34,458 nt of DNA from a virus, in the IMG/VR virus record IMGVR_UViG_3300046028_003142, positions 1-34,458 of that record. The stretch is one strand, 5' to 3'. The position numbers were made by a program, and so were the translations under genes. Each line of letters opens with the position of its first letter. Position 1 is the stretch's first letter. This document shows positions 1,122 to 34,458 of this stretch, in pieces. The notes under the pieces were generated by a model. It was not told the DNA's origin and made no database searches. It saw nothing but the letters and a program-made list of their open reading frames with translations.

Positions 1122-1634
1122 TTACGAGTCACCTAAAATTTTAATTAAATGTTTTGCCTGGTGCATCGCATCATCTAAAGCATTATGATGAACGCCGACT
1201 CTGTCATCTTCAGGAATCCAGTTAAATAAATTCTTAACTGTTCTATAACATCTGTCATCCCAACATTTCCAGGGAGGTTCTCTATCAGAATAGAAATATG
1301 CGTTAGTAAGAATTGTATTATCAAATACTGCACCGTTGCCCCATATAGGTAAACTCTTAGGACCGAACCAGGCCTCAAAATTGGTTAAAGCTTCGTCCAA
1401 AGGAATAGTATTTTTAGTTAACGCTTTTAGTGCTTCTTTATTTTGTTTAGACCACCATTCTACAGTATCCTTAGATATATGTAGACCAACATCTTTGCAA
1501 GTTTTTAAATCAATGGTGCAGTAAAAGGTATCAAGAACCTCTTTACCTTTAAACTTTACTGCACCTATTGAACAAATTGCCGCATGTGATCTCGTGGACA
1601 TTGTTTCAAGATCAATCATAACATGAACAGTCAT
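1122..1634 (-). CDS. dexA: DexA-like DEDDh 3'-5' exonuclease
   Basis: A 170-residue DnaQ-fold nuclease. Exo I is IDLET with D8 and E10, Exo II is the aspartate D105 in NGAVFDNTIL, and Exo III is HHNALDDA (H149/H150, D154), so all the two-metal catalytic residues are present. The segment TVEWWSKQNKEAL closely resembles the STIEWWKNQSPEA segment that I recall from T4 DexA, and the family also includes Rv2179c-like exoribonucleases. It is shorter than T4 DexA (227 residues). The likely role is degradation of DNA or RNA from 3' ends during takeover or nucleotide recycling. The start codon overlaps the folE stop (ATGA), implying translational coupling. Whether its substrate is DNA or RNA cannot be told here. 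Confidence 0.85.
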   Translation of the reverse strand: MTVHVMIDLETMSTRSHAAICSIGAVKFKGKEVLDTFYCTIDLKTCKDVGLHISKDTVEWWSKQNKEALKALTKNTIPLDEALTNFEAWFGPKSLPIWGNGAVFDNTILTNAYFYSDREPPWKCWDDRCYRTVKNLFNWIPEDDRVGVHHNALDDAMHQAKHLIKILGDS

Positions 1635-2314
1635 TTTTTACCCATTCGCGCAATACTTAAAAATTCATTTCTTACTGCAGGGTCAGTCTTAAATCCCCCA
1701 CCTAATCGCACAGTAACAGTAGAGCTACCGGTATCTTCAACACCTCTAGATTTAACACAGTAATGCTGAGCATCAATTAATACAGCAACATCGTCAGTAT
1801 TTAGAATAAAACATAATGCATGAAAAATTTGTTCCGTTAATCGTTCCTGTATTTGAGGACGCTTACTAAAGTATTCTACAATACGATTAATTTTACTTAA
1901 ACCAAGAACATGATTTTTAGGAACATATGCGATAGTTGCCAATCCATCAATAACTACGAAGTGATGCTCGCAATTACTCTGAACATTTACATTGCGTTCG
2001 ACGACCATTTCATTATAACGCATTTTGTTTTCAACAGTAGTGCATTTAGGAAATGCGTCATAATCCAATCCCCAAAATATTTCATTGACATACATTTTAG
2101 CAACACGCTTAGGTGTTTCATTAAGAGAATCATCTCGTAAATCTAGACCAAGTATGTGCATTATAGATGCAAAGTGTTTTTCGATTTCTTCAATCTTATC
2201 TTTACGATCTAATTTAGATGCATCTATAGTAGGAGTTTCCACTCCTAATTTAACTAAGTGCGCATGCACTTGTTGTCCTAATATTGAATCAGTTTTAGTT
2301 TTATTGTATGACAT
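1631..2314 (-). CDS. folE: GTP cyclohydrolase I
   Basis: FolE converts GTP to 7,8-dihydroneopterin triphosphate, the first step of both folate and 7-deazaguanine (queuosine/preQ0) synthesis. The C-terminal catalytic domain is complete: zinc ligands C115 and H118 in NCEHH and C186 in HYCVKSRGV, the LGLSKINRIVEYFSKRPQ core, and EDTGSSTVTVRLGG near the end. The length of 227 residues is normal for the family. A strong ribosome site (AAGGA) lies upstream of ATG 2314. With queE two genes upstream, the deazaguanine route is the more likely use; queD and queC are not in this window and would have to lie elsewhere or come from the host. The gene has its own late-type promoter and a leader hairpin. 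Confidence 0.95.
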   Translation of the reverse strand: MSYNKTKTDSILGQQVHAHLVKLGVETPTIDASKLDRKDKIEEIEKHFASIMHILGLDLRDDSLNETPKRVAKMYVNEIFWGLDYDAFPKCTTVENKMRYNEMVVERNVNVQSNCEHHFVVIDGLATIAYVPKNHVLGLSKINRIVEYFSKRPQIQERLTEQIFHALCFILNTDDVAVLIDAQHYCVKSRGVEDTGSSTVTVRLGGGFKTDPAVRNEFLSIARMGKK

Positions 2315-2354
2315 TTTAGAATCCTTCCTTACACGGATATGAGTTTTGTATTTT

Positions 2355-2370
2355 GTCGCCTTTGTGCGAC
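2355..2370 (-). promoter_or_regulatory. Leader hairpin at the predicted 5' end of the folE mRNA
   Basis: A perfect 5-bp stem (GTCGC/GCGAC) with a 6-nt loop lies between a late-promoter octamer and folE. The expected transcription start, a few bases downstream of the octamer, falls at about 2370, so the transcript would begin with the stem. It is followed by A-rich sequence rather than a T tract, so it does not look like a terminator. A stabilising or regulatory 5' hairpin is the best reading. Confidence 0.45.
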
Positions 2371-2374
2371 ATAG

Positions 2375-2800
2375 TTATTTATATGATTCCCACCAGAAAT
2401 TAATAAATTCTTTTTGATATTTTCGATTAATAGTTCTTGCATAATAATTTGGTATGTGTATCTGGTCTACATTGTAAACTAACACCGCAGTATCAATATC
2501 ACAAAAACTATATAGTTCTTTTAAAGTTGTTAGAGTTTTGCCAGAATCGCATATGTCATCTACTAACAAAATTTTAGATTCGGGTTGTAATACTTGATTA
2601 CGAATATCCTGCACCGCCCAATCCCGTGTAGACCAATCTAAGTTATATAATGGAATATTTAACGCATGCGATAAACACACTGCGGGGATAAGTCCCCCCC
2701 GTTTAATACCAACTACATAATCATATTTTTTATTACTTTGTTTTATTTTTGATAACAGCGAATACATATCGGCGTCATACTCAGCATAGCTATACTCCAT
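2375..2800 (-). CDS. Type I phosphoribosyltransferase, Gpt/XGPRT-like
   Basis: A 141-residue PRTase with the PRPP-binding motif LLVDDICDSGKTL (about residues 78-90) and an N-terminal GIKRGGLIPAVCLSHALNIP segment that matches the SRGGLVPG region of xanthine-guanine PRTases. The C-terminal tryptophans (FWWES) also recall the WIEQPWD end of that family. It should join a 6-oxopurine base to PRPP, giving the nucleotide and pyrophosphate. ATG 2800 is preferred to ATG 2812 because it overlaps the queE stop as TAATG and has GGGGA five bases upstream. Its place between queE and folE suggests a purine-like base as substrate, possibly a 7-deazaguanine, but plain guanine or hypoxanthine salvage is equally compatible. 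Confidence 0.85.
   Translation of the reverse strand: MEYSYAEYDADMYSLLSKIKQSNKKYDYVVGIKRGGLIPAVCLSHALNIPLYNLDWSTRDWAVQDIRNQVLQPESKILLVDDICDSGKTLTTLKELYSFCDIDTAVLVYNVDQIHIPNYYARTINRKYQKEFINFWWESYK
2376..2383 (-). promoter_or_regulatory. gp55-type late promoter for folE
   Basis: Exact TATAAATA on the coding strand, overlapping the last codons of the phosphoribosyltransferase gene and 62 nt upstream of the folE start. The phage encodes gp55 at 3693-4325, the sigma factor known to read this octamer in T4. It would give folE, the exonuclease and the glycosyltransferase their own late transcript. Confidence 0.6.
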
Positions 2801-3654
2801 TACGTTCCCCATTGATTCTTAAATAAGGGAACTTGCAATCTATCAGAATATCTCCAGCCCAATTTCATTGCCATTTCTGCAACTCGTTTATTGTTCATAT
2901 AATACACGGTTTCAACGCCACCTACTGGCATCAAATAAATATGCCCATAAAATCCTGCTTTGCGATATTCCGCCACTGCTTTTTCTGCTTCAACAACATC
3001 TTCTTCTGATGCTACTACAAATTTTAGATATGTATTACCTATTTTTTGATAGTCGCAAACTACATCTGGCTTAATTGCATCTTCCCACTTTTCGCCCGAA
3101 ACAGATAATTTAGGGGAAACCGAGAAAGTTAATTTATCATAATCTCTACCAAAGCGTGTCCATTCTTGAAATAGATACTCATTGAATTCCTCAGACAAAG
3201 ATTGGGTACCGTTTGTCTCAAATGTTAGCTCATCTAAAGATTTCATCAAAGGATGTTCTAATAACTGTTCGTAGGATTTTTGCCAGCCCAACAAAGGTTC
3301 ACCGCCAGTAATTACCAAATGCTCTTGTTGCCAACCTTTTGCGGGCAATAGTTCTACAATAGATTTTGCGATGCTATCGACTTCAAGTAGAGGAGATAGC
3401 CCTTTAAATCTTGGATCCCAACTAGCATATGAATCGCAACCAGTACTAACCAGCGGCAGTTCTTTATATGAAAGAAACTTACCAATTTCTGCAGCCACAT
3501 AATCGACCTCTTTACTGTATTCACCTTTCGGCATACCAAACCCACTACAAGTAAAGTTACAACCGAATGTACGAAGGAATACGGAAGGTACACCCATGTA
3601 CCGACCTTCTCCCTGAATACTATAAAATAGTTCTGCTACTTTAATTTTGCTCAT
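2800..3654 (-). CDS. queE: 7-carboxy-7-deazaguanine synthase-like radical SAM enzyme
   Basis: QueE makes the 7-deazaguanine ring from carboxy-tetrahydropterin using SAM and a [4Fe-4S] cluster. Visible features are the N-terminal ELFYSIQGEGRYMGVPSVF, typical of QueE, the radical SAM cysteines C32 and C36 (CNFTC), ITGGEP (about 115-120), and a SPKLSVSG segment like the VSPKLN of bacterial QueE. The usual third cysteine two residues after C36 is missing; instead CDSYASW, resembling the normal WCDTxxxW, comes 36 residues later with C73. ATG 3654 is chosen because the longer frame would start at TTG 3669. The length of 284 residues is longer than E. coli QueE. It overlaps the PRTase gene by one base. 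Confidence 0.85.
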   Translation of the reverse strand: MSKIKVAELFYSIQGEGRYMGVPSVFLRTFGCNFTCSGFGMPKGEYSKEVDYVAAEIGKFLSYKELPLVSTGCDSYASWDPRFKGLSPLLEVDSIAKSIVELLPAKGWQQEHLVITGGEPLLGWQKSYEQLLEHPLMKSLDELTFETNGTQSLSEEFNEYLFQEWTRFGRDYDKLTFSVSPKLSVSGEKWEDAIKPDVVCDYQKIGNTYLKFVVASEEDVVEAEKAVAEYRKAGFYGHIYLMPVGGVETVYYMNNKRVAEMAMKLGWRYSDRLQVPLFKNQWGT

Positions 3655-3692
3655 ATAAGTCTTTATCAATTTAATTATACAGTATATAGTAT

Positions 3693-6652: not shown

Positions 6653-7540
6653 TTATCCTACTTGAATAATTTGAGAAGGATTACCTTGGAAATTAAACGA
6701 ACCATAGTGGTTCAGGGAGATCGACGGATCAAGCCAAATTTCGCCACCGATGTCTTGCCATCTACGACTAAACGTATAATCTTCAGAAAGATAACGCTTA
6801 TCCTTTGGATCAATCATTGTATCGAAGAATGCGTAAAAATGAGGATTTAATTCTGGAGGTGTATTCAAATCATTGTTATATTTTAGATCTGGATACGCCG
6901 CAATCATTTTATCAATAACTTCTCGTTTAATCATCATAAAGCCAGTTGCGCCATCGTGTAAACGAATCAACCCATTCTCAATTGCAATTTGTTTCTGTTC
7001 GCGATTAATGAACTTAAAGTTGATTGCATAATCGCTACCAAATGATGCAATTTGTTTGTCGTCATATGCAGTATCATGTTGACGAACGCTTTCACGAATA
7101 CGCTGCCAATTGACACCTTTCTTAGGATATGCACCTACGGCAACATCTTTATTGTGAGCAATTAGTTTAATAACATCTTCAACTTGGAATTCGATGTCTG
7201 CATCAATAAACATTAGACGAGTAAAATCGCTTTGTAGGAAATATGCTACCAAAACATTTCTAGCTCTAGTAACCAAAGATTCATTCGCAATAGTTCCAAA
7301 CGCAATAGGAATTTGATGTTGATTGCAGAAAGTTAGTAATCGAATAGTTGATCTAAAATATGCTTCAGTTAATTGTCCGCCATAACACGGAGTAGCAATG
7401 AAAATACGTTCTTTACGAAGGTCGTCTATTTTCACTTCTAGCTTTTTTTCGTTGGGATTGTTTGCTGCCTCTTGATTGCCGCCTGCCTTTGGCAATTTAG
7501 GAATTGAAGGCAGGGGCATCGGTTTTACTTTTGTACTCAT
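6653..7540 (-). CDS. GT-A glycosyltransferase (GT2-like)
   Basis: A 295-residue protein. About 45 proline/lysine-rich N-terminal residues are followed by a GT-A fold: IFIATPCYGG first strand (46-55), ANESLVTRARN, the metal-binding DAD in LMFIDADIEF (113-115), GATGFMMIKREVIDKM, and a late acidic LSEDYTFSRRWQ that fits the catalytic-base region. It should transfer a sugar from a nucleotide donor. It sits between the gp3-like tail gene and uvsY, where other aquatic T4-like phages tend to keep structural genes, so virion glycosylation is possible. The acceptor is not determinable. Start 7540 is ATG with GGAG upstream, 20 nt after the preceding gene. Confidence 0.85.
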   Translation of the reverse strand: MSTKVKPMPLPSIPKLPKAGGNQEAANNPNEKKLEVKIDDLRKERIFIATPCYGGQLTEAYFRSTIRLLTFCNQHQIPIAFGTIANESLVTRARNVLVAYFLQSDFTRLMFIDADIEFQVEDVIKLIAHNKDVAVGAYPKKGVNWQRIRESVRQHDTAYDDKQIASFGSDYAINFKFINREQKQIAIENGLIRLHDGATGFMMIKREVIDKMIAAYPDLKYNNDLNTPPELNPHFYAFFDTMIDPKDKRYLSEDYTFSRRWQDIGGEIWLDPSISLNHYGSFNFQGNPSQIIQVG

Positions 7541-7560
7541 AATAACTCCAAATTAAAAAA

Positions 7561-8148
7561 TTATAAAGGTTCTACTTCGAAAATAGTATATTTGAATGTT
7601 GCAATTGCAGTAAAATACTCTACGGTTTGAGAAGTAATATCAAAATCCAAAGCCTGTAATGATATAGGGAACAGGTTTTTAAATATTATATTTACTTTAG
7701 GCGAGTTTGTCGAGTCGAGAATAGTCAACGTACCATCCGAGTATGCCAAAATCTCTTCAGTACCATCCTTTTTGGTTACAAACGGAAATCTACTTACCTT
7801 ATTATCCGAAAATGTTTTGAATTGAGAATAATCTTTAGGAAACCCTAAGCCAATTATCCATCGATATAATTCAAGGTAATTTCTCATATCTTCAGCAACA
7901 ATGAATCTAATTGTAAATTCACCAAAGTTTATTTTATCACCAACCGTTGGTAAATCTACAAACGGAGTATTTTGAACAGCATATCCTAATTGCAAATCTG
8001 GAAGGTTTGCCGATTGACAAGTAAATGAGACTTTAGGTAAATCTTTTAAACTAAATCTAAACGCATTTGGTCGTAAATAATCATATGTCGTTGTTTGCGA
8101 TTCAGCTATAGCATTTTGAATAACGTCTATGTTTGCGGTGTATGCCAT
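7561..8148 (-). CDS. 3: Tail completion/terminator protein, gp3-like (tube-fold)
   Basis: A 195-residue protein placed immediately after gp23 and before the uvsY-uvsW block, the slot held by gene 3 in cyanophage-type T4 relatives. Its pattern (DYLRPNAFRFSL, then TCQSANLPDLQLG, FVDLPTVGDKINFGEFTIRF, EDMRNYLELYRWI) has the strand order of the gp19/gp3 tube-like fold: an N-terminal helix, SANLP-type loop, DK-F-T strand and a helix after EDM. gp3 caps the tail tube and stabilises the sheath terminus. It is distinct from the real gp19 at 15406. It has its own exact late promoter 23 nt upstream. The call rests on position and fold pattern, not a confident sequence match. Confidence 0.6.
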   Translation of the reverse strand: MAYTANIDVIQNAIAESQTTTYDYLRPNAFRFSLKDLPKVSFTCQSANLPDLQLGYAVQNTPFVDLPTVGDKINFGEFTIRFIVAEDMRNYLELYRWIIGLGFPKDYSQFKTFSDNKVSRFPFVTKKDGTEEILAYSDGTLTILDSTNSPKVNIIFKNLFPISLQALDFDITSQTVEYFTAIATFKYTIFEVEPL

Positions 8149-15405: not shown

Positions 15406-15993
15406 TTAACCTGCGACTGAACCAAATATATTCAACGAATCAACCAACTGCGATGCGGGTGTACTACTAACTTCAAATGACTGATATTGGAATGCAACTT
15501 GGAATGAAGATATTTGATCATTTGTACCAAAATCCAATCCAACTGCACCAATATCTGTAGGAAATACACCTAGCATTTTATATTGTTTAAGAATAGCACC
15601 GTTACGATCTAACTGCGATATAAACATATCTGTTTGATATTGCGCCGGAGTTAATGCACCAGTTTTTGTTCTTAAATTTTCCATACCGTTCATCCATTGT
15701 TCTATAGCAGTCCGAAGAGTAAACCCCGAATCATTAAGTATAGTACAACTAAAAGGTGCAAATGTTCTATCACCAGCCATTGTTATTAGTCTACCCCGAT
15801 AATACACCGGGGTAACACCTAATGTTTGACCAGGTAATTCTGCCGCAGTAATTAAAAATGGAGCTTTAGTTACTGCGAGTGCGCGACTTGCAACATAGTT
15901 AGGAAATGTTAATTGAACCGCAAACTGGTTGGGTCTTGCCCCACCGTTCGTTAGTTCAGCTTTAAATCTATCTACATTAAATGGTATTGCCAT
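15406..15993 (-). CDS. 19: Tail tube protein gp19
   Basis: The inner tube subunit of the contractile tail. The pattern RPNQFAVQLTFPNY, ITAAELPGQTLGVTPVYYRG, MAGDRTFAPFSCTILND and KMLGVFPTDIGAVGLDFGTN aligns by eye with T4 gp19 (ARPNLFQVEI, VAGDRTFDDWTVTVMND, IKGLWPTNVGELQLDW). The length is 195 residues against 163; the extra residues are mainly the C-terminal tail after the SFQVAFQYQSFEV strand. It follows gp18 by 15 bases, as in all T4 relatives. Confidence 0.96.
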   Translation of the reverse strand: MAIPFNVDRFKAELTNGGARPNQFAVQLTFPNYVASRALAVTKAPFLITAAELPGQTLGVTPVYYRGRLITMAGDRTFAPFSCTILNDSGFTLRTAIEQWMNGMENLRTKTGALTPAQYQTDMFISQLDRNGAILKQYKMLGVFPTDIGAVGLDFGTNDQISSFQVAFQYQSFEVSSTPASQLVDSLNIFGSVAG

Positions 15994-22418: not shown

Positions 22419-23162
22419 TTAGCCTGTAAAAAAGTCTACAGGTAGCTGAAAACTGGATTGTATATCATCTTCAATTTGTTTGATCTCTACCATAGCTTCA
22501 TTATAAATCGTTTCACCGTTAAGCGTTACTCCGCCAGGTAATTGCATACCGGAAAACTTCTTAAGATTATCTCCCCATTGCCGTTTAATCAAAGCAGTAG
22601 TATACATTTTAAGGAATCTATCGTCATAAACATCGCGATATGTTTCCGGATCTAATATTCGGTAACAATCAACCAATAGATATTCGCCCACGGCGACATC
22701 AGCACTCCAATCCATATCGATGAAAAGTCTATTCATGTGCCGATTAAATCTAATTGGCTTTTGACCTACAAGTAATTGATTGATTAATTCAATTTCTCTT
22801 TTCACTGTGTAGTAGTAAATCAAATCCGTAGACATTAAACTATACAAATCGTTAATCATAATTTGATATTTTAAACTAAACAGATTCAATCCATCTGATT
22901 TATTTGTAAATGGAAAAATTTCCTGTACCCCCACAACGGTATCCGGTACAGAAATATATTGATTATCTTTATCTGTTTGAGTAATTTGATGCTTTAAATA
23001 TACTCTTTCTATCGCATCATAATGATATTCGCGATAAAATTGAAACGCATCATCAATTCTATCTTCCACCTGATCGTCATCTACGTTTATTTCTAAAACA
23101 GGTGATCCTAATCTACGTAGGCAATAGTCTCTTAGACCTTCTCTGGATGTTACTTTAGCCAT
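22419..23162 (-). CDS. 13: Neck protein gp13
   Basis: Head-completion/neck protein that binds the portal. [20 protein letters not shown] near the start matches LKDVILRRLGAPIINVELT of T4 gp13, [18 protein letters not shown] matches ALELYGEYHFDGLN, and [19 protein letters not shown] matches GMMLPGGVTIDGQRLIEEA. Its 247 residues lack about 60 residues of the T4 protein (309). The start overlaps the end of the fibre gene by eight bases, and a second decayed copy of the first nine codons lies at 24990-25019. Confidence 0.95.
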
Positions 23163-24408
23163 AGTATACTATTTCTCCGGTAGTTGGATTATATGCTAAT
23201 GATAAAAATCCTGCAGGTATAGTATTCCCCGCATTTCGTATTGGTTTAATTATTAAAGTATTGGCTGCGGTGTTAGTTAATCCATTTCCGGTAGCATTAA
23301 TTATAATTGAATTGTCTGTTTGTCTAATATTACCTGAGTTATAACCTATTGCAATTGCTAAATTTCCTTGATTTGAAAATCCTGCACCGGCGCCTAATGC
23401 GATTGCGTATGTTCCTTGATTTGTGTGCGCCGCCCAATTTCCGATTGCGACTGCTGAATTTCCTTGATCATCATATCCCGCTCTTTCACCAATTGCGACT
23501 GCTGAATTTCCTTGGGTAAATCGTCCCGCTAGTATGCCTATGGCTACTGCGTTTATTCCTTGATTAGCATTAGCGGCAAAGCGTCCGATTGCGATTGCAT
23601 TCGTTCCTTGATTAGAAAATCCCGCATAGTCGCCAATTCCGACTGTGTTTCTTCCTTGATTATAATATCCTGCTCCTGCGCCTATTGCGATTGCTGATAT
23701 TCCTTGATTATTATTGCCGGCAGTTTGGCCTATTGCGACTGCTGCCATTCCTTGACTAAACTGCCCCGCGCCAAGCCCCATTGCAATAGCTTGACCCCCT
23801 TGCGCGGACAACCCGGCAAATGAGCCTATTTTAATATTGCCACTATTAGAAACGGTTACATTTGCCGTGCTACCTACCCCGGCTGGGCCTGTTGCTCCGG
23901 TTACACCAACTAATGAATTTCCAGTAAAATCTTTTACATCATTTGTTCTTATTTGAGCAACATATGCAGTACGCCATACGACATTCGAAGAACCTAAATC
24001 ATATAGATCGCTAGAAACAGGAATAAGACTTTGTGCAATTACTGATAAGTTTGCAGCACCGGCGCTGCCGGTGGCTCCTTGAACTCCGGTGGCGCCTGTT
24101 GCACCTGCTCCTGTTGCTCCCGTTGCTCCTGCGTTTCCGGTTAATCCTGTAGATCCAATTACGCTTGCGTTGCCGGCAGGCCCCGCCGGACCGGTAGCAC
24201 CAGTTAATCCAATAACCCCAGTGGCGCCTGTTACACCACTTCCGGTTCCACCTGTTGCATATTCAAGAGAATTCCAAGTATTAGAGCCATCTCCATATTT
24301 TATTTTACCCGTGTTCATTTCTAAACCAGGTTCTCCTTGAGATAAAATTGGATTAGTATTTGCCCAATTTACAGATGTATCTCTTCTTAATTGTATTTTG
24401 TTAGCCAT
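23155..24408 (-). CDS. Fibre/adhesin with Mtd-type N-terminus, collagen and YadA-head repeats
   Basis: 417 residues in four parts. Residues 1-50 ([20 protein letters not shown], then [16 protein letters not shown]) are the short phage-fibre N-terminal domain related to the major tropism determinant N-terminus. Residues about 55-118 and 168-178 are collagen-like GAT/GPA triplets. Residues 203-362 are ten 16-residue units with an A-[IV]-A-[IM]-G-x-x-A-G core, the pattern of trimeric adhesin (YadA-type) heads. The C-terminus ends in [16 protein letters not shown]. It is probably a trimeric receptor-binding or accessory fibre. Its stop overlaps the gp13 start by eight bases. Repeats make length change likely among relatives. 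Confidence 0.85.
23323..23802 (-). repeat. Ten 48-bp coding repeats (YadA-head-like)
   Basis: Ten in-frame units of 16 codons, each opening with QG and carrying AIAIGxxAG or a close variant. Unit length is constant at 16 residues across all ten, with variable tips (GQFS, GNNN, GYYN, GFSN, GRFT), as expected of left-handed parallel beta-roll trimers. Confidence 0.9.
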
Positions 24409-24452
24409 TTTGTGTTACGTCTCCGTTAAAGGATTTCTTATTATATATGGAT

Positions 24453-24980
24453 CTATGCAGTACCGCCATCCACATTAAAATTAATTGTATCATATATTGT
24501 TGTTGCGCTGCCGCCATCTAAATTTGTTACTGTATATGTTATACCCGGTGCACCGGTCAATCCTCTAAGACCCGTAAAACCTCTAAGCCCGGTTGCCCCT
24601 CGAACACCCGTAGCACCGGCGCCGGTGGCGCCCTGAATACCTTGAATGCCCGTAGCACCGGTTAATCCCATGTTACCTCGGAATCCGGATGCGCCTCGAA
24701 TACCTGTAGCGCCAGTCAATCCTGTACTACCTCGAGCACCTGCAGCACCGGTTACTGAAATACCTGTAGCACCAGTTAATCCGGCAGGACCTTGAACGCC
24801 CATACTACCTCGTAATCCAATTGGACCTCGAATACCTGTAGCACCAGTTAATCCTGTATTACCTCGAGCGCCTGCAGTACCGGTCAACCCCGTTAATCCG
24901 GTGGCGCCAGTCAATCCCATGTTACCTCGGAATCCGGAGGCGCCGATTGCTCCTGTTGCTCCTGTTGCCCCATTAGTCAT
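24453..24980 (-). CDS. Collagen-like virion protein
   Basis: 175 residues. Nearly the whole protein from residue 4 to about 148 is Gly-x-y triplets ([32 protein letters not shown]) with two short phase breaks (GISVTG and GAGATG). The C-terminus [16 protein letters not shown] then FNVDGGTA is a small capping motif common on phage collagen proteins. It should trimerise into a thin rod, perhaps a fibre or whisker on baseplate or head. There is no N-terminal anchoring domain, so it may bind the adjacent Mtd-type fibre. DNA-level repeats are present, including an exact 26-nt copy at 24664 and 24913. Confidence 0.85.
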
Positions 24981-25575: not shown

Positions 25576-26058
25576 TTATTTAAATCTACCATAATAGACT
25601 CTATACGCAAGATTTACAATTGCATCACCTTCTATGGTGTTATACCCTTGTCTATCAAAATTATTTTTACATACAATTTTTAATACACCTGATTCTACAA
25701 CTGTAGTTATTATACTAGATCCCAATAATAATCCCGTACTAGGCTGTCGTATTACACGCACAATAGTTGACCCCGTTCCGCTAACTACATATGCTCCGGA
25801 ATCCGAAACTCCACCGTTAATAGTATAAAACGGCATTAAAAAATAATTTTGATCGGTGATGGTTGAATTATTTATCAATATAAATTCGTCAGTTCTATTG
25901 ACATAGGTAGCATTCGGGTCGGCTCCTAATACTGTTGGTATAGATAGTACACCCGGAATATTGTATAATATATGGGGCATTCTTCTATCTAAAGAAAACT
26001 TAAGATCGCCGGCACTATTAGTTATACTAAAATTATCTTTTTCTAAAGTAATACCCAT
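25576..26058 (-). CDS. Structural protein of unknown function
   Basis: 160 residues, mostly beta by pattern, with no signal or membrane segment. LKFSLDRRMPHILYNIPGVL near the start and YNTIEGDAIVNLAYRVYYGR at the end are the most distinctive parts; the SLDRRMPH motif is the sort of conserved head seen in small tail-tip or fibre-associated phage proteins, though I cannot name the family. Start and preceding stop overlap as TAATG. Probably part of the distal tail. Confidence 0.6.
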   Translation of the reverse strand: MGITLEKDNFSITNSAGDLKFSLDRRMPHILYNIPGVLSIPTVLGADPNATYVNRTDEFILINNSTITDQNYFLMPFYTINGGVSDSGAYVVSGTGSTIVRVIRQPSTGLLLGSSIITTVVESGVLKIVCKNNFDRQGYNTIEGDAIVNLAYRVYYGRFK

Positions 26059-27203
26059 TACTGCACTCCAAGGTAAAGTAGATTCGAATTAATATTAAGT
26101 GCAGAATTAAAAAAATAATTTTTAATATTATATTTGTATGTTAATGCAGCCCCTTGACCAACCAAAGTTTCTCCCAACGGCCAAATTATATTTGTATCTG
26201 TTAACGTAATCGCCCCCGCCCTCTCATCATATAGTCCACCTTCTAATGAATTTTCTGCACTAGCTTCAGTTAATGTTCTGCCTTGAGAATAACCCGTAGT
26301 TATATAATGTATTGTTGCATTATATGTGTCGTAACCATATAAACTTCGTATATCAGAATATTTGTTAAGATACGCAATTGGGTCAAATGTTATTGTTCTG
26401 TCTGCCCGCTGATTGGCATAATGTATTTGCCCTGATACAGGATCCGCCCCTAATGAAAGTATTAAATCCGAATAGCTTGCTATATATCTTAAAGCATCTG
26501 CAGTTGAAATATAAAACAAACTAATTGGTAATGAATCTGCAGTATCTCCCGGTAGCCCTGGTATAGTATTTAAATAACTGTTAGGGTTTGCAACAGACGA
26601 TGTAGATATTATTTCCTCATTGCCATTTAAATTTTGTAGGAATATATTTAATTCCGTTGGAAATATTATATAAGTTCCGTTCGATTGTAATTCGGATCTG
26701 TATAAAGAATTTTTACTTATTTCTATACCATATCCTAGTGACGTAGGCTGCTCTACATAATTATATTTTCCCGCAACTTCTTGCCAATTGTAATGTATAT
26801 ATTGATCTAATTTAGTGATAAATCCTGAAAAAGTATAACCACCTATAAAGAAATCAAAAAAGCCAGTCCTAACAGGAGGCTTATCTATAAGTAAAAGATT
26901 GACAAATGAATTAATATCTAATAAACCATTTACAGAATAATTTTCTATAAACGGACCTTTAGTAGGAATATCTTCGCCTAAATTTTCTCGAGTTTGTATG
27001 TCTGAGTATTTTGTTAAAGAAATGCCTTTTGCGGTTTCTCTATAAACTCGCAAATCAGCAGATAACAATGTTTTGGTAAAAGAATAACTTGCAGAATTTG
27101 TAAATTGATCTATATTTTTGTATAGATAACTTCTTTCTGTACTGAATACATTTCCAAGTGTTACTAAATTTTCCGATGCATTTAACAGGTATACGTTGGA
27201 CAT
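26058..27203 (-). CDS. Putative tail protein with two bacterial-type SYxDLI repeats
   Basis: 381 residues if started at ATG 27203, one base after the preceding stop; a longer frame would need TTG at 27227. The N-terminal half is unrecognised. Residues about 240-315 contain two copies of a roughly 45-residue helical module: ALRYIASYSDLILSLGADP with HYANQRADR, then AYLNKYSDIRSLYGYD with HYITTGYSQGR. This module occurs in secreted and calcium-binding-type proteins of Proteobacteria. The C-terminus is polar and beta-like. A receptor- or polysaccharide-contacting role is a guess from context. Confidence 0.6.
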   Translation of the reverse strand: MSNVYLLNASENLVTLGNVFSTERSYLYKNIDQFTNSASYSFTKTLLSADLRVYRETAKGISLTKYSDIQTRENLGEDIPTKGPFIENYSVNGLLDINSFVNLLLIDKPPVRTGFFDFFIGGYTFSGFITKLDQYIHYNWQEVAGKYNYVEQPTSLGYGIEISKNSLYRSELQSNGTYIIFPTELNIFLQNLNGNEEIISTSSVANPNSYLNTIPGLPGDTADSLPISLFYISTADALRYIASYSDLILSLGADPVSGQIHYANQRADRTITFDPIAYLNKYSDIRSLYGYDTYNATIHYITTGYSQGRTLTEASAENSLEGGLYDERAGAITLTDTNIIWPLGETLVGQGAALTYKYNIKNYFFNSALNINSNLLYLGVQ

Positions 27204-27204
27204 A

Positions 27205-27735
27205 TTATATAGTTGGTACGTTAGCAATATTGTTAAATGCCAATATTGTATATCTTTTAGTTACAAACGATAACGGTTGTATTCTAACAAAGTATTCTTC
27301 TTTAATATAAAATTTTGTACTATCCATCATTAATGTTGCTAATCTAAAAGCATTATTATTTAAATTTTGCACAAAGGTATTTGCACCTATAATCTCATTC
27401 GTATCTGAATCTAACAATATTGCACATGGGACAAATCCAAAATTATGATTTGTTATTGTATGGATAGTAGTTCCCCGATTTGGAAAATTAGGCGCGCTTT
27501 TTCCTTTTTTGTTATTTTCATCTGTGTTTACCTCAATATTAGAATATGATTGCACAAAATTAGTTTTTGATAAAATATTAAAATACTCAAACCGAGTATC
27601 AAAATATACTCTATCTAAATTATTTAACGGATTGCTTAAAGGGGTATTACTACCCGTTTGTCCCGTAGGATTATTAAAGATAGATACTATCTTTCTTCCG
27701 GAAACTGTACCTGCCCAAAAAACATTAGTCGACAT
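27205..27735 (-). CDS. Putative distal tail protein
   Basis: 176 residues, not recognised. It opens MSTNVFWAGTVSGRKIVSIF and has a TTIHTITNHNFGFVPCAILL segment and a C-terminal FVTKRYTILAFNNIANV; aromatic-rich, beta-type, with no membrane segment. Its start lies inside the end of the NlpC/P60 gene (11-nt overlap), so the two are coupled and may belong to one tail-tip module. Structural by context only. Confidence 0.55.
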   Translation of the reverse strand: MSTNVFWAGTVSGRKIVSIFNNPTGQTGSNTPLSNPLNNLDRVYFDTRFEYFNILSKTNFVQSYSNIEVNTDENNKKGKSAPNFPNRGTTIHTITNHNFGFVPCAILLDSDTNEIIGANTFVQNLNNNAFRLATLMMDSTKFYIKEEYFVRIQPLSFVTKRYTILAFNNIANVPTI

Positions 27736-28372
27736 TTTTTAATATTTTATTTCTATAGATTACTGCAATTTTTTGTTTATAACTTAACGTCAAATCTTGT
27801 GTAGTAGAAAATCTTCCTGCTAAATGATGCAAAATTTTTCCCTCACCTAAATATACTGCCCCATGATTTGGCATAGAGCTACCTATCTTCATAATTAAAA
27901 CGTCATGTTTTTGTATATCAGATACTTCTTCAAACGAATAATCTTTTGCATTATCTACATATAAATTCTCACCCTGCGCCCACCATTCCCAATTTCTTTG
28001 TATGTTTGTAGGTAAATATACATCAAAGTTTCTTTTGTAATAATCTCGTATCAATGTATAACAATCAAAAAGCCCATGTAAAAATGGCCTATTTTCTAAT
28101 TCGGCATTCTCAAAATACCTATTCGGTATAAAAATTTCCGATATATGTTTAGAGGAACCTATTGTGATAATTGGTATTTTTATAAAATTTAATAATTCTC
28201 GTTCCTCAAAAGTCAATACATTCACATCTGCATTTGTTTTTTTTAATAGCAATACAACCGCTTTATTTGTATTGTCTGCTAAAATTAATTTGCCTTCTTT
28301 TTGGCTAAGAAATAATTTATTTTCTTTTTCTAAATCTTTAAAAAATTCATCAGGAACATTATGACCTAGCAT
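27725..28372 (-). CDS. Lambda K-like tail protein with NlpC/P60 peptidase domain
   Basis: 215 residues. The C-terminal NlpC/P60 cysteine peptidase has C104 in FLHGLFDCYTLIRDYY, H170 in PNHGAVYLGEG and a third polar residue at H182/H183 in ILHHLAGRFS. LPTNIQRNWEWWAQGENLY and KHDVLIMKIGSS fit tail protein K of lambda-type phages. The first 90 residues would correspond to the K N-terminal JAB/MPN domain but lack its metal histidines, so that half is probably degenerate. The likely role is cleaving cell-wall peptide cross-links at the tail tip or processing tail assembly. The start is one base after the fibre gene stop. Confidence 0.85.
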   Translation of the reverse strand: MLGHNVPDEFFKDLEKENKLFLSQKEGKLILADNTNKAVVLLLKKTNADVNVLTFEERELLNFIKIPIITIGSSKHISEIFIPNRYFENAELENRPFLHGLFDCYTLIRDYYKRNFDVYLPTNIQRNWEWWAQGENLYVDNAKDYSFEEVSDIQKHDVLIMKIGSSMPNHGAVYLGEGKILHHLAGRFSTTQDLTLSYKQKIAVIYRNKILKNVD

Positions 28373-28373
28373 A

Positions 28374-29990
28374 TTAAATTTCTATTCTAATAAACTTACT
28401 ATTCAAATCTATAACCATTCTACCGTCGGTTGAACGTAATATACCGGTAGTTACTGTACCTAAACTCTGTGAAATTTCTGATAAATTATTTGCACTAACC
28501 GATACACCTGTAAATATATTAGGAGCCAATTGTGCCCGTTGTATTGAACCGGAAACAATTTTTGTGCCATCTATTGTATTTGCTGCTAGTTTATTACCAG
28601 TAATAGAATTATCTTGTATCTTTGTAGTTATTACGGAATTTGCCCCTAACTTTGCAGAGGTTATTGCCAAATCACTAACTTCTCTAGTTGTAATAGTATT
28701 ACTTACTAATTTACTACCTGTGATAACATTAGATGCAATTTTGCTAGTTATAACAGAGTTTGAAGCCAACTCTACATTACCAACCTGCCCCGCATTTAAT
28801 ACTATGCCGGTAACTGAACCAGATACTCCGGGCGAATAAAAATTCCAAGAAGTTTTAGTTGTATTTAAAATGTAGGATGTTGTGCCTACTATAATTAAAT
28901 CTCCAGCATTATACGTAGATACATCTGAAGGTAATGCGGATAATGTAGGTACTCTCGCAATTACCGTATTACCTGTATATGCGGATATTGTGCGCCAGGT
29001 GGAAGTATCAAAAATATATAAACCGGCATTAGTTCCAGTTTTTCTAAATAAATCACCTACGTTTGCAGAAAGCGTAGATGGTAGAGTTGAACCAGACCCA
29101 ATTCCGCCACTACCGCTTGCGCCAGATACATAGCTAGCTAATGTTTGCCACGCTCCGCTAATAAAGATATACGCAACCCCGCTTACTACTACAGTTCTAC
29201 CTGAAAAATTTGTAACATCACCTACTGCGGGCAATGATAATAATACTTCAATACCTGTAAGAGATGTACCGGCAATTACGCTAGATAAAGTTTTCCATGT
29301 ACCGGATAAGTATACATATGCGGCAGAATTGCCTGTTTCATAAAATAAAGTACCTTCGGGCGAAGACACCGGTCTAATTGTACCAATAGTAAATGCAGTA
29401 GTTCCTCGGAATTTATCCCAACGTAAATCTGAACCGGCTAATCTACCTATGCTTGGATTTGCTGCTAAACCAGATCCGTTACCAATAGGATATCTTGAAT
29501 ATATCCATATATCTCCAGTATAAAAAACAATTCTACCTTCTTGGTTTCCAATAGTAGGTAATGCAGATACAACCGGTACCCCATTAATTGTTACTGTAGT
29601 ATTGCCCGAACCGGTGGTTACTACTATATTTGCCGCACTTACTCCGCCAGTAAAATTTGTTATCTGAGCAGTTACATACCCCTGCGTCGCTAAATCTTGA
29701 TTAAACCATTTAATTGTGCCATCTTCATTTATTGCTAATGACTCTACGCCATTTAAAGAAAAGCCAATTTGTCCTGGGGCTTTTCTAAACATACCCGTAT
29801 CTTTATCATTTGCCCATGTAAACCCAGGAGAAAGTTTTTGATCGCTTCCATATGCAAAAATTTGTCCCCCAGAATATAGAGAATTAAAATTTTCATTTAC
29901 CTTAATGAAAGCATCACGTAGTATGTCACCATCTCCCGCATTAGGAGTAGTGCCTACATTTACATTTGAAAGGTTCTTAGATACTGGCAT
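28374..29990 (-). CDS. Tail fibre with decapeptide repeats and J-type C-terminus
   Basis: 538 residues. The N-terminal motif TPNAGDGDILRDAFIKVNEN (then FNSLY) is a common baseplate-attachment head of fibres in aquatic T4 relatives. Residues about 140-390 contain several loosely repeated units built around GDLFRK/YIF..STWRT (for example YVYLSGTWKTL, YIFISGAWQTL, LYIFDTSTWRTI). Residues 406-495 are about nine decapeptides of the form K[LI]xxNxITxx. The end, SQSLGTVTTGILRSTDG then MVIDLNSKFIRI, matches the C-terminal motif of many lambda-J-like tail-tip proteins. It probably contacts the host or supports the peptidase encoded next. Confidence 0.8.
   Translation of the reverse strand: MPVSKNLSNVNVGTTPNAGDGDILRDAFIKVNENFNSLYSGGQIFAYGSDQKLSPGFTWANDKDTGMFRKAPGQIGFSLNGVESLAINEDGTIKWFNQDLATQGYVTAQITNFTGGVSAANIVVTTGSGNTTVTINGVPVVSALPTIGNQEGRIVFYTGDIWIYSRYPIGNGSGLAANPSIGRLAGSDLRWDKFRGTTAFTIGTIRPVSSPEGTLFYETGNSAAYVYLSGTWKTLSSVIAGTSLTGIEVLLSLPAVGDVTNFSGRTVVVSGVAYIFISGAWQTLASYVSGASGSGGIGSGSTLPSTLSANVGDLFRKTGTNAGLYIFDTSTWRTISAYTGNTVIARVPTLSALPSDVSTYNAGDLIIVGTTSYILNTTKTSWNFYSPGVSGSVTGIVLNAGQVGNVELASNSVITSKIASNVITGSKLVSNTITTREVSDLAITSAKLGANSVITTKIQDNSITGNKLAANTIDGTKIVSGSIQRAQLAPNIFTGVSVSANNLSEISQSLGTVTTGILRSTDGRMVIDLNSKFIRIEI
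28506..28775 (-). repeat. About nine decapeptide coding repeats in the fibre gene
   Basis: Protein-level 10-residue units such as KIASNVITGS, KLVSNTITTR, KLGANSVITT, KIQDNSITGN and KLAANTIDGT, following each other with one-residue slips. Likely an elongated beta-helical shaft. Confidence 0.8.
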
Positions 29991-29994
29991 AGTT

Positions 29995-30201
29995 TTAACT
30001 TAAGTTTAAATGGGTTTTAATCTTTTCAAGTTCGGCTTTTAACATATTTATTTCCGTTTCTAAAGCCCGAACTCGTGCAGTTTGTTTTCTTTTTTCTCTA
30101 TATTCCTGCACCATTCTTAAATTTGTATTTAGAATAGCACCATTCTCCGGATCCTTAACGTAATCCGTATTGTTTTCAATAATTAAAAATTGTTTATTCA
30201 T
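29995..30201 (-). CDS. Small coiled-coil baseplate-associated protein
   Basis: 68 residues from ATG 30201; an upstream TTG at 30210 is not needed and the ATG fits the TAATATG junction with the preceding gene. The first part, FLIIENNTDYVKDPENGAIL, then NTNLRMVQEYREKRKQ, resembles small proteins that accompany baseplate genes in cyanophages, and the rest (RVRALETEINMLKAELEKIK) is a leucine-heptad coiled coil. Probably a structural or assembly helper; no enzymatic motif. Confidence 0.65.
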   Translation of the reverse strand: MNKQFLIIENNTDYVKDPENGAILNTNLRMVQEYREKRKQTARVRALETEINMLKAELEKIKTHLNLS

Positions 30202-30202
30202 A

Positions 30203-31939
30203 TTAAGCAATCAATGATGTAGCAATTAATTTTCTTATTTTAGGTAAATATACAGGATTCGACGCATAGAAAACAACTTTTATTTGATATTGAAAAAAGT
30301 CATCATATGATGTTGACTGTCCTTCTGTATCCGATAAGGATTTATTTACAGTATATTCAAACCCCGGCTCAAGCAATTTATAAATTTCTTGAGTAAATAT
30401 CGTATCGTCAGTGCCAGCAAACGATTTAGTTTGCCCCGGTGCTAAAGCAAGACGAGTCCATGGTCTTGAAGCAATTCCGGCGGTATACGATTTGTCGTTT
30501 CTAGATATAACTCTTGCAAAAACTTCAATATCAGACCCAACTTTTCTATTAACTTCCATTCTAACTTCTAACCCGGTTGAATCTAAATTTTCTGTTAATG
30601 TGACAACTTTACTAATATACCTAGATAATGCGTCACCATTATTAGAATTTAATTCAGAATCAGAAATGTTTGTAGTATATGGGGTTATATTTGTTCTAAA
30701 TACTTGCGATTTTATTAGTTGTTTGTCTAATATCGGGGATACGTCTTGAGATTTTGTTGTTATTGAAATCTGAAGTTTAATATCTCCTTGATCTCTTGTA
30801 CTTTGTCTTCCGGCAATGTCTAATGAGTCACCCGCATTTATTACCTTTGCATCATTTTGTTCTCGATTTGTACTATCGTTAGTTGTTACAATTTTATATT
30901 CTGCAAATGCAGTATCGCCCAATGCAATATCGGTAGATAGTAGACGAATTCTATTATAATCAATTTGCTTAATATCCGGGGAGATTAATTCAAATGTAGA
31001 TGTACCTGTTTCAAATTTTGCTTTTCTAAGATAAAAAGTTAAATCCTCATTATCATCACCTACCCAATTTCCGGTATTTTGTGCTTTGAACAATTTTCCT
31101 GCAAAGGGATTTTTTACAATTTTACCATCACCTCGTTTTGCAGATAATAATGTATACTTTGATGATTTTGTTACTACGCAAAATGCATATTCTCCAGGTT
31201 TTAAGTATACCGGAAAATCAAAGGTAAAATTTGTTGCTTGATAATTTTGACCTGGAACTGGCACCGCAGGTATATTTGCTGGTGCAATAAAAATAGAAGT
31301 ACCGGAAAAGTATTCTGTAGTCGAAGGGGCTCCTCCGGACATAGGACGTAATTCTACTCCTAACGGAAATTTATCATCTATTGCAGATACGAATAATGCA
31401 ATACCTGTCAATACAAGTCCTAACGGATATGCACTTTCATCTACAGAAAACGTCTGAGATAAAGGGTCTAATCTTGTGGTTGTTGTACTGGCATCTCCAG
31501 ACGATCCGGTATTATCTGTTCTAAATTTTTCAGTTCGTCTTAATGATATAGTACCACCTTGTTCAGTATCTACAAGATTTAAGCCATGATTCATTAAAAC
31601 AGTTTCAGAAATATATTTGCAATCGGCAACGCCGTTAGGGCTATCACCAAATGTTATTCGTATTTCACCCGATAAAAATTTATATTGCCCTTCTGTACTA
31701 GGAATATAAAGATACCCGACTGCGGTACCTAGCTGATCTGTTATAATAGGATCAGCAATTAAAGCACCTGTAGTAACTGGGCCGGTAAAATTTGTAACAT
31801 TGACACCGTTAACATAAGAATAAATTCTAATGCTAGGTGGCATCTCAGATACTGCGAAGGATATAAGTTCGGATCCCGCATATACCGGAACATCTGTTTT
31901 CAATGTTTTAGCTGTACTAATAGTACTTGTTGTCGCCAT
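30203..31939 (-). CDS. Baseplate structural protein (DUF4815-associated family)
   Basis: 578 residues. LDPLSQTFSVDESAYPLGLV, FVSAIDDKFPLGVELRPM and FDFPVYLKPGEYAFCVVTKS form a beta-sandwich block found in large T4-like and cyanophage baseplate/tail proteins, where it often lies in the same polypeptide as the DUF4815-type region. Here that other region is on the neighbouring gene, which ends three bases upstream. The C-terminal third (EVRMEVNRKVGSDIEVFARV, QYQIKVVFYASNPVYLPKIR) is a further beta domain. A role in the baseplate wedge or fibre attachment is inferred. A variant late promoter precedes it. Confidence 0.7.
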   Translation of the reverse strand: MATTSTISTAKTLKTDVPVYAGSELISFAVSEMPPSIRIYSYVNGVNVTNFTGPVTTGALIADPIITDQLGTAVGYLYIPSTEGQYKFLSGEIRITFGDSPNGVADCKYISETVLMNHGLNLVDTEQGGTISLRRTEKFRTDNTGSSGDASTTTTRLDPLSQTFSVDESAYPLGLVLTGIALFVSAIDDKFPLGVELRPMSGGAPSTTEYFSGTSIFIAPANIPAVPVPGQNYQATNFTFDFPVYLKPGEYAFCVVTKSSKYTLLSAKRGDGKIVKNPFAGKLFKAQNTGNWVGDDNEDLTFYLRKAKFETGTSTFELISPDIKQIDYNRIRLLSTDIALGDTAFAEYKIVTTNDSTNREQNDAKVINAGDSLDIAGRQSTRDQGDIKLQISITTKSQDVSPILDKQLIKSQVFRTNITPYTTNISDSELNSNNGDALSRYISKVVTLTENLDSTGLEVRMEVNRKVGSDIEVFARVISRNDKSYTAGIASRPWTRLALAPGQTKSFAGTDDTIFTQEIYKLLEPGFEYTVNKSLSDTEGQSTSYDDFFQYQIKVVFYASNPVYLPKIRKLIATSLIA

Positions 31940-31942
31940 TTT

Positions 31943-34458
31943 TTAGATTCCTATTAAAGAATAATTTATAGATTTGTAACCATTGCTTTCAATTTTTACT
32001 GCATTTGGATATAGTTTTTCCACATCTTGTGCCATAAATCCTAAATACCTACCGTGCCCTGCAATACCTTTAAATTGTTTCTTATATTCGAATTCATATA
32101 ACCTTAACCCGTTAGGTAATTTTTTCTTAAATCTAATATTTTCCTTCATTCGTTCATCTGAAAATAAGCGCCTAATGCCTTTCCAAATATATTGTCCAAT
32201 TTTTACCACAGCATATGTAAGAGCAACAACCGCAACTACTTGAATAAATGGGCCTGCCGCATATAATGCAGATGTTATGGAAGCTGTACTACTTGCTATG
32301 GCCGCAGATGCTGTTCCTAAAATAGGTATACCTGTAGTTGCTGCTGCAAGACTAGAAGCCCCTGCTGCCAACGACCCCCAAGTTGCAGTAACTAACCCCG
32401 ACGTAATAAGCCCAACACCTGTAGATACCCCTGAAAACGTAGCACTAAATGTTTGATTAAAAATATTTGCTAAAGAATTTGCAATTAACGTAGACCCTTC
32501 CGATATTGCTCCCCATGCCGCAGGACCAAACACAGATTGTCCAACCGCGGATACTATACCTCCGCTTCCTGTCAATGAAGAAGAACCGTTTGCCAATCCA
32601 TATATCCAATCTATACCGCCTGTTACAGCTCGATACGGCCACGATACCATCTTTAAGAAACCATCCATAGTTGTGAATGTTTGTACTACAGTATATCCTA
32701 ACGTCCTTGCACTTTCCCATACTACTGCAAGAGTCGATTCACTTAACCAAGATGCACCTTTAAAATACTCATATAAACCATATAAAGCGGCACCTGTCAA
32801 TAACATATTAACCGAAAAACTATTACTTTTAGAAATTTTAGCTCTACCTTTACCATCATCTATGCCACCAGGATTAACTGAGATAGTAGAATTTGCTTCT
32901 AAATTGGACACATAAATTTCTTCTACATATTTTTTTGTTATGATATCATTAAATAAGAAAACATCTGTATCTTGAACTAATTGCATATCAATATTTGAAG
33001 AATCAAACCCCGGATAACACTCTCCAGTATCATTATCTAATACACAAGTAAAATACCCCGATGCTAAATCCGCAGTATTGAAGTCATCAAAGTTTTCAAC
33101 CAAAATACCAGATTTTAATAGTTCCGTTTCTTGATCTTCATCTAAAATTATAGACTTTAAAATTGAAAGTTCTGCAGTTTGCAATTTAACAGTTCTATCT
33201 AAGTCTATTGCCAAGTTTTCCAATTTAGCAATATCTCTCATAGTGAATCGTTTATTGTCCTCATATGTTATTTTAACATCAAACCCGTTAATGGCATACG
33301 GAGGAATATCTAATGTTGCAATTGATAATTTTGTTAAATCTGAATTATCCTCACTTGCTTCCGGATTTACTGATTCTTTACCCACTTCAACATAAAATTT
33401 ATCATACGGTGAAGTAAAATTTTGACGAGTATTAGTTACATAAATTCTATCTTTTCTTCCTATAAAATACGTTACATCGACTTCAGTTGTTATAGTTGAA
33501 TTTGGAATAATTGCGGTATCAAAGTTTTGATATTTTGACCCATCCACGCGCCTTGGTCTAAAATCTAAACAATCTCTAAGATTATATGTTTTTGCATCTA
33601 CCACAGATCTATATACAGGAATACTGCTATAAAAATTTGCAGGATATGATTCTACTGTAACAGGTCCTTCGCCAGTATGCTGAAAATAACTTACAACAGT
33701 TAAAACTTGGCCTGGTGGCAACGCCTCTATATCTCGATTCACATATGTTATTGTACCATGATCGTAGAACTGATCTCGTTGACCATTATCTAAATTGTAG
33801 TCTCTTGCGGGTTCCTGTTGCATTAGTATCCAGGTCTGCGAATCTGTTGGAGCCACATTTGTTGATGGTGCAATAGCTTTATACACCGCAGAGCCATATA
33901 CTATAAGATCATCATACGTATATGACGTTGTAGAATTCCATTGCCCCTGATACTTAAAAGATAACCCATCATAGAAAGGACTGTTATTATCTTTTTCTAA
34001 AAAAGTTTTAGAACTTGTTCGTGTTCTAGCATAATCTGTAGTACCGAAAGACGGAGCTAGTACAAACGCTTCTTTTATTGCATTAATTGCATTAATTGGA
34101 TTAATGTTGCCACCCGCAGCTATCCATCTATTATACCAAAACGCTACACCTTCCGTATCCGGTTCTCTGTATAATCCATAGAAAGGCGTTGCTGGAATAC
34201 CAAAGTTTCCTAATAATGCGTTAGTTTCATATAATTGCGCTGAAATATATCTTCCATCTGCTTCGGGTATTCCAAATTCGGTTGCCCAATCTGCCCATGA
34301 GGTATTCGAAATATTGTCAATTTTATAAACACCATTAAACGACACAATATCCGAAACGCCTAATGAGAACGGTAGTTCTGCTAATGATACGTTTGTAATT
34401 ACTGCTTGATTTTCAACTAATGTTTTAGTTCTGGGGACTACATCATCGTTTTCTATCC
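31943..34458 (-). CDS. DUF4815-like baseplate/fibre protein with S74 chaperone, 5' end missing
   Basis: The frame is open past a GTG at 34345 to the window edge (reading ...RTKTLVENQAVITNVSLAEL), so the true start lies outside; 837 codons are visible. Near the visible start, FYGLYREPDTEGVAFWYNRW looks like a DUF4214 unit. PVYRSVVDAKTYNLRDCLDF then RPRRVDG is a DUF4815 hallmark. A roughly 150-residue Ala/Gly/Ser-rich hydrophobic stretch follows, with a possible membrane-type helix (IQVVAVVALTYAVVKIGQYI). The last 72 residues (31943-32161) are an intramolecular chaperone of peptidase family S74: SDERMKENI, NGLRLYEFEYK, GFMAQDVEKLYPNAV. In that family the Ser-Asp pair cuts the chaperone off after trimer folding. 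Confidence 0.8.
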   Translation of the reverse strand, partial: IENDDVVPRTKTLVENQAVITNVSLAELPFSLGVSDIVSFNGVYKIDNISNTSWADWATEFGIPEADGRYISAQLYETNALLGNFGIPATPFYGLYREPDTEGVAFWYNRWIAAGGNINPINAINAIKEAFVLAPSFGTTDYARTRTSSKTFLEKDNNSPFYDGLSFKYQGQWNSTTSYTYDDLIVYGSAVYKAIAPSTNVAPTDSQTWILMQQEPARDYNLDNGQRDQFYDHGTITYVNRDIEALPPGQVLTVVSYFQHTGEGPVTVESYPANFYSSIPVYRSVVDAKTYNLRDCLDFRPRRVDGSKYQNFDTAIIPNSTITTEVDVTYFIGRKDRIYVTNTRQNFTSPYDKFYVEVGKESVNPEASEDNSDLTKLSIATLDIPPYAINGFDVKITYEDNKRFTMRDIAKLENLAIDLDRTVKLQTAELSILKSIILDEDQETELLKSGILVENFDDFNTADLASGYFTCVLDNDTGECYPGFDSSNIDMQLVQDTDVFLFNDIITKKYVEEIYVSNLEANSTISVNPGGIDDGKGRAKISKSNSFSVNMLLTGAALYGLYEYFKGASWLSESTLAVVWESARTLGYTVVQTFTTMDGFLKMVSWPYRAVTGGIDWIYGLANGSSSLTGSGGIVSAVGQSVFGPAAWGAISEGSTLIANSLANIFNQTFSATFSGVSTGVGLITSGLVTATWGSLAAGASSLAAATTGIPILGTASAAIASSTASITSALYAAGPFIQVVAVVALTYAVVKIGQYIWKGIRRLFSDERMKENIRFKKKLPNGLRLYEFEYKKQFKGIAGHGRYLGFMAQDVEKLYPNAVKIESNGYKSINYSLIGI
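31963..31970 (-). promoter_or_regulatory. Possible variant late promoter for the baseplate gene
   Basis: TATAAATT on the coding strand, 23 nt upstream of ATG 31939, inside the last codons of the preceding gene. It is the same 7/8 variant seen before gp23. In AT-rich coding sequence this can arise by chance. Confidence 0.35.

Follow-up and report, generated by a model that had tools for sequence, protein, structure and literature searches.

We analysed a 34,458-base virus record of IMG/VR (IMGVR_UViG_3300046028_003142, G+C content 35.9%), called the window below, and focused on two adjacent genes, a fibre gene and the gene of an NlpC/P60 peptidase named K' (K-prime). As judged by homology and gene order, the two genes belong to a mobile fibre-tip cassette composed of a fibre or J C-terminal tail, K', p176, p389 in T4-like phages, and p160. 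By gene content the cassette is carried on three unrelated chassis, the baseplate fibre of T4-like phages, the lambda-type J protein and the fibre of N4-like phages. Not every cassette includes K', whose place is exactly between J-type tail and p176; a cassette with an optional K' is very probably the correct description of the locus. A loop of p176 co-segregates with K', which suggests that the two proteins work as a pair, by docking or cleavage. K' and the p-numbers are labels coined in this analysis, and the names K, I, J, L and M in metagenomic loci were assigned by similarity.

The K' gene (27725..28372; all features of the window given here lie on the minus strand) encodes a 215-residue protein of the C40 type. 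K' matched PF00877 (E value 7e-11) and phrog_30, 'minor tail protein' (E 2.9e-45), and had 37% identity with lambda K across 123 residues (E 6e-27), so the kinship with lambda K proposed in an earlier note on this DNA was confirmed. At E 1e-5 the search returned 1505 phage records, all below 60% identity among the matches listed. The NlpC/P60 domain (residues 92-212; 27737..28099) has the catalytic cysteine, histidine and polar residue in a papain-like fold, with C104, H170 and H182 as the likely active site, and C104, H170, H182 and H183 were invariant in all 19 K' rows (13 distinct). An AlphaFold2 (AF2) model of K' had a predicted local distance difference test score (pLDDT) of 86.9, and over about residues 89-213 its best fold matches were 7v6t (Z 12.9) and MepS (8xup, Z 12.6); as modelled, the domain most resembles the folds of wall endopeptidases, MepS among them.

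The N-terminal domain (residues 1-90; 28103..28372) is probably a JAB/MPN remnant lacking the zinc motif. Foldseek gave a weak JAB1/MPN match for it (AF2198, E 0.13, prob 0.96), the VIA fold comparison barely covered it, and the Prok-JAB profile had no match in K'. The JAB zinc motif (HSHP...SxxD) was present in none of 15 K' open reading frames (ORFs) versus 22 of 24 inspected canonical K ORFs, which were a selection out of 65 other loci from the IMG/VR K-family scan; HSHP was found in 0 of the 19 K' rows. A PDB profile match to Mov34/MPN was discarded, because its alignment included canonical K and gives no evidence on K' itself. In the tree of the NlpC domain, the ten K' rows made up a single clade (support 100/100) separate from the 23 K rows. 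These sequence comparisons make K' a K-family branch in which the JAB protease motif is lost and the papain-like NlpC/P60 site retained. Compared with L121, K' showed non-synonymous and synonymous divergence (dN and dS) of 0.05 and 0.57, and the fibre and p176 are under similar purifying selection. K' as an ordinary T4-like baseplate gene was rejected, since PF00877 was found in none of six known T4-like phages (P-SSM2, HTVC008M, phiM12, phiM9, T4 and S-PM2).

The fibre gene (28374..29990, 538 residues) was kept in every T4-like relative with a scorable junction. Its J-type C-terminal tail (residues 505-538; 28377..28478) reads ...LGTVTxGxLRSxDGxxxIDLxxKxIRIEI and matches J C-termini. A 55-residue query from the fibre C-terminus retrieved the C-termini of the 'tail host specificity protein J' of Rhizobium siphophages (E 2e-4 to 1e-3), and the match ended no more than 6 residues before the stop of the J or tail protein in 3 of 3 records inspected. 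A hidden Markov model (HMM) of the last 130 fibre residues matched J C-termini of Rhizobium phages (3.6e-14 and 4.7e-20) and of the cultured Xylophilus phage Lumi (5.6e-10), whose J proteins were outside the training set of the model. These matches bear out the proposal that the fibre preceding the peptidase ends in a J-type motif. The likeness is confined to the C-terminal tail, and the tube-closing hub domains of a J-type fibre were not found in the window fibre. Thus the J-type central tail fibres of Rhizobium phages RHph_N1_10 and Y1_11 have their last 30-45 residues in common with it, whereas the remainder of the 538 residues has no J match and instead begins with a possible, weakly matched N-terminus of the T4 gp9/gp10 type (residues 9-40; 29871..29966). 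The match of the latter to PF07880 (E 0.0027, 18.2 bits) is under the 25-bit Pfam cut-off and is taken as a lead only.

The T4-like chassis of the window is a contractile phage. T4-type PHROG matches were obtained for portal, sheath, tube, terminase, capsid, scaffold, protease, late sigma factor, head and neck genes, and gp23 places Pelagibacter phage HTVC008M (65%) and Methylophilales phage Melnitz (63%) closest among cultured phages. The order gp8, VrlC-like, small virion protein, fibre island, gp13 matches that of HTVC008M, gp8 having been seen in relatives and not in the window. Both studied genes sit in the fibre island of this baseplate operon, the content of which varies between phages. 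The IMG/VR scans yielded T4-like loci with successive fibre, K', p176, p389 and p160 genes. In the window the third and fourth of the cassette genes lie at 26058..27227 (p389, syntenic in the T4-like loci reaching it) and 25576..26058 (p160). The module therefore reaches downstream beyond the peptidase and fibre, at least over p176 and p160, an extension absent from the earlier note.

The same block was found in two lambda-type siphophage contigs, L042 and L043. In L043 the order is M, L, a canonical K (237 residues, JAB plus NlpC), I and J (2139 residues), followed by K' (214 residues, 44% identical to that of the window), a p176 relative (30%, E 2e-21) and a 263-residue protein with a p160-related C-terminal part. 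Since this siphophage has both proteins, K' is not the tail-tip K but a sister family found after J, and transfer of the siphophage tail-tip K as such was rejected. In L173 and L174 a 575-residue tail fibre with the same J-type tail is followed by K', p176 and p160; L173 also has a 93-residue partial relative of p389. The L173 contig (55.7 kb) is read as an N4-like podophage because it carries an N4-like RNA polymerase, a virion RNA polymerase match inside a 4003-residue ORF and a DNA polymerase/primase set, while L174 was seen as a gene block alone, the same as in L173. Vibrio phage pVa5 looks like a podophage by name, but it has lambda-type tail genes with the peptidase before I and was set aside.

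More distant, siphophage-like loci (L196/L197) combine a J tail with a K'-like ORF (196 codons) and a gene resembling that of p176. In Lumi a J-type tail is directly followed by a p176-like gene and further on by a p160-like gene, as in the cassette, but there is no K' between J tail and p176 relative. Because L043 and L173 were among the training rows of the cassette HMMs, the independent matches are Lumi, L196/L197 and the Rhizobium phages alone. The earlier note had proposed a siphophage tail-tip module in a contractile phage. The block is indeed common to lambda-type siphophages; its presence in an N4-like podophage as well marks it as a fibre-tip cassette rather than a complete siphophage tail tip that was transferred. 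The IMG/VR scans kept the best 80 of 261 and the best 80 of 232 loci, and more distant K' genes may exist. A genome-contig scan added 14 loci (31-42% identical), whose gene context was viewed through the HMM scan alone. NCBIfam gave no name for any of the six proteins submitted.

The optional presence of K' was scored at the junction of fibre and p176 in 37 T4-like records. K' was present in 15 (the window and 14 contigs) and absent from 22, a ratio that reflects the queries used and not natural frequency. In 21 of the 22 junctions without K', p176 starts -1 to 6 nucleotides from the last fibre codon, so that the two genes overlap or touch. The remaining one, L258, was counted as lacking K'; in it fibre and p176 are separated by 458 nucleotides (7423-7880) that hold long Ser-Pro repeats. 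L130 was left out since its contig stops inside the fibre, and L260, whose fibre end lies beyond the contig, was outside the junction count. On the backbone tree two changes are needed, which may be losses or gains of K'.

The first 11 nucleotides of the p176 gene (27205..27735, 176 residues) are shared with the end of the K' gene, and homologues of p176 follow K' in siphophage L043 and podophage L173. A loop of p176, KGKx5PxxG (residues 77-88; 27472..27507), was present in all 19 rows with K' (12 of 12 distinct), on all three chassis, and in none of 23 T4-like rows without K' (0 of 16 distinct), L260 being included among the latter. Lumi, which has no K', has a p176 relative without the loop. 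Across 2.39 million open-frame residues from all loci the pattern occurred 68 times, in 11 strings, and every occurrence was a p176 loop. As a control, alignment columns whose residues never overlap between the groups with and without K' were counted in T4-like phages. Such columns numbered 15 of 176 in p176, eight of them within columns 68-82, versus 3/573 in the fibre, 3/456 in p389, 4/180 in p160, 2/72 in p71, 0/113 in p110, 4/247 in gp13, 10/250 in gp14, 2/252 in gp3 and 6/663 in a 578-residue protein. p176 is thus richer in group-separating columns than the nine other proteins (0-4% of columns each). The loop lies about 75 residues into p176, and the sequence is alignable on either side of it. 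Because loop and K' come and go together, a partnership of K' and p176 is suggested. Homology, gene order, optional presence, motif loss and co-segregation are all read directly from the sequences. In one locus, L041, an extra N-terminal stretch of about 340 residues is joined to p176 (a 514-residue ORF), which puts about 1 kb between K' and the p176 core.

For K' we infer a location in the virion, docking and a substrate. The conserved J-type tail would be a socket for tip proteins, and K' would dock on p176 via the loop KGKx5PxxG. Delivered in this way at the fibre or tail tip, it would cut peptide stems and help to breach the wall alongside the M15 peptidase of gp5. Cleavage of peptidoglycan at the tip is plausible by analogy. 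The tail peptidase of RcGTA is reported to degrade peptidoglycan and possibly to sit in the tail (PMC7296036), and it is called an NlpC/P60 member in PMC10783043, which provides a precedent for a wall endopeptidase delivered at the tip. Taken as a whole, the combination of cassette, loop docking and delivery as a wall endopeptidase is the best explanation that we can offer, and we hold it tentatively. With similar reserve, K' and p176 could be an enzyme-partner pair that travels on a J-type tail peptide among contractile, long non-contractile and short-tailed phages, with that tail as a general socket.

Several observations weigh against this explanation. In siphophages L196/L197 the divergent K'-like gene lies between the J tail and the p176-like gene and no loop is present. 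The p176 tree places the rows without K' on one side of a branch (support 78/75), and the co-segregation may represent few independent changes, since loop and K' loss may be one or two events. According to PMC10721106, mass spectrometry did not detect lambda gpK in virions, so a K relative need not be structural. Finally, it is not obvious how a side fibre on a T4-like baseplate would get to the wall of a Gram-negative host.

The strongest alternative is that K' stays outside the virion and serves in assembly as a cysteine peptidase, with its cleavage site in p176 (or the fibre tip) at or close to the loop. This we consider doubtful, yet nearly as likely as docking and delivery. Such a peptidase would fit the co-segregation of loop and K' and the overlap of the K' and p176 genes. 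It would also agree with the gpK result above and with the proposal that K processes the Ub-like gpI, made by Iyer et al. 2006 (PMC1779556). However, K' no longer has the motif of the JAB domain, which would be the prime candidate for processing gpI, and the NlpC-domain fold matches mainly wall hydrolases. A tblastn search with three I proteins found no gpI relative in the T4-like loci; the Pfam test for lambda gpI is weak, as it misses the I gene of L043 too.

Alternatively, the co-segregation may be a trace of ancestry, in which one lineage lost K' together with the loop, or swapped its p176 allele, by recombination, and K' and loop would then have no functional tie. The small number of events, with two changes on the backbone tree, the position of the rows without K' in the p176 tree and the loop-less L196/L197 are all in keeping with this. 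The alternative is nevertheless unlikely, as the loop lies well inside p176 between alignable flanks, other proteins have few such columns, and Lumi is a further phage with neither K' nor loop.

K' could also be an endolysin expressed late from the tail operon, considering its NlpC/P60 fold with an intact active site and the lack of another lysin, for the two families tested, in the K'-bearing contig G008 (126 kb). This role is quite improbable since the K'-bearing G011 has a separate 175-residue M15 endolysin-like gene (E 1e-46) and the K'-bearing siphophage G009 has its own 191-residue gene of a lysozyme family (E 2e-42). In addition, every chassis places K' between the fibre tail and p176, and close relatives lack the gene. 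The lysin gene of the T4-like G011 (L162) is located at C1:4158-4643 and comes on top of the M15 domain of its gp5.

Since gp5 lies outside the 34-kb fragment, it was read from relatives. In those with K' (G006, G010, G011) and those without (G018, G020, G022, G024), gp5 runs from a Gp5-type N-terminus through a middle domain and a beta-helix to a C-terminal M15-type domain, the metal motif of which was intact in 3 of 3 and 4 of 4 inspected, respectively. An AF2 model of gp5 from one relative (pLDDT 49 overall, usable only at about residues 145-305 and 695-830) matched the zinc D,D-peptidase 1lbu with its C-terminal domain (Z 13.4) and lysozyme and transglycosylase folds with its middle domain (Z 9.4-9.8). 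The lysozyme profile PF00959 had no match in gp5 of the relatives, and the same search found T4 gp5. By eye, the E of an E-S-x-G stretch is missing in all seven gp5 proteins and present in the more distant G014. The gp5 muramidase may thus have decayed. The earlier note had asked whether gp5 keeps its lysozyme domain: in the relatives a lysozyme-fold domain is retained and looks catalytically decayed, with or without K'. Because both groups are the same in this respect, the decay appears independent of K', and because relatives without K' have the same gp5 domains, K' would add to gp5 rather than stand in for it. That a lambda tail-tip module swaps the gp5 muramidase for endopeptidase entry, as had been proposed, is hardly credible: the missing PF00959 match and the missing E fit it, but the same M15-bearing gp5 occurs with and without K', and 22 of 37 T4-like relatives lack K'. 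In HTVC008M (KC465899, 22853-23881), gp5 is a 364-residue frame in which the OB part adjoins the beta-helix part, with no middle or M15 domain.

Other genes of the window were also recorded. The small virion structural protein (phrog_473; 29995..30210), syntenic with HTVC008M, marks the edge of the fibre island. Beyond it the VrlC-like baseplate proteins are two ORFs (31943-34456 and 30203-31939), both of which match the single 6-kb VrlC gene of HTVC008M, and the former ends in a Peptidase_S74 (endosialidase chaperone) domain. Beside gp13, positions 23155-24980 encode collagen-like repeat proteins, one with further repeats that are YadA-head-like by eye. Two T4-type tail tube genes (phrog_45) are present at 7561-8148 (E 5e-35) and 15406-15993 (E 3e-53); one adjoins gp23 and the other gp18/gp20. 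GTP cyclohydrolase and QueE-like genes lie near each other at 1631-3669, a pair that suggests phage-made deazapurine synthesis.

The cassette is made of known tail-tip parts, and the coupling of K' to the loop was not found in the literature searched; that search, of titles and abstracts, gave nothing describing K', the p176 loop or the cassette. In HTVC008M and Melnitz (Kyanoviridae), the nearest cultured T4-like relatives, gene order is like that of the window, but the island fibres have no J-type tail and p176 has no match in either at E 1. HTVC008M has no NlpC/P60 protein, unlike the window phage. The tail peptidases of RcGTA (g14) and roseophage R4C are likewise small peptidases in a tail operon with a proposed role in wall opening at entry (PMC7296036 and PMC10276861). 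Deletion of g14 blocks native particles, as stated in PMC7296036, whereas K' is optional; the likeness is drawn from their description. A fibre-tip cassette that crosses three tail types bears on how host-recognition modules spread. With lambda gpK (TAPK), K' has in common the NlpC/P60 domain, phrog_30 and the tail gene context. gpK lies between L and I-J and combines JAB with NlpC, whereas K' follows the J-type tail in all chassis and has lost the JAB motif; some TAPK members have NlpC/P60 alone, according to PMC1779556. The role of lambda K has long been unclear, and K', a stripped-down K without the JAB motif and with a candidate partner loop, offers a natural experiment with close relatives that have or lack the gene at one clean junction. 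It makes the question of what the NlpC/P60 domain of K-type proteins acts on directly testable.

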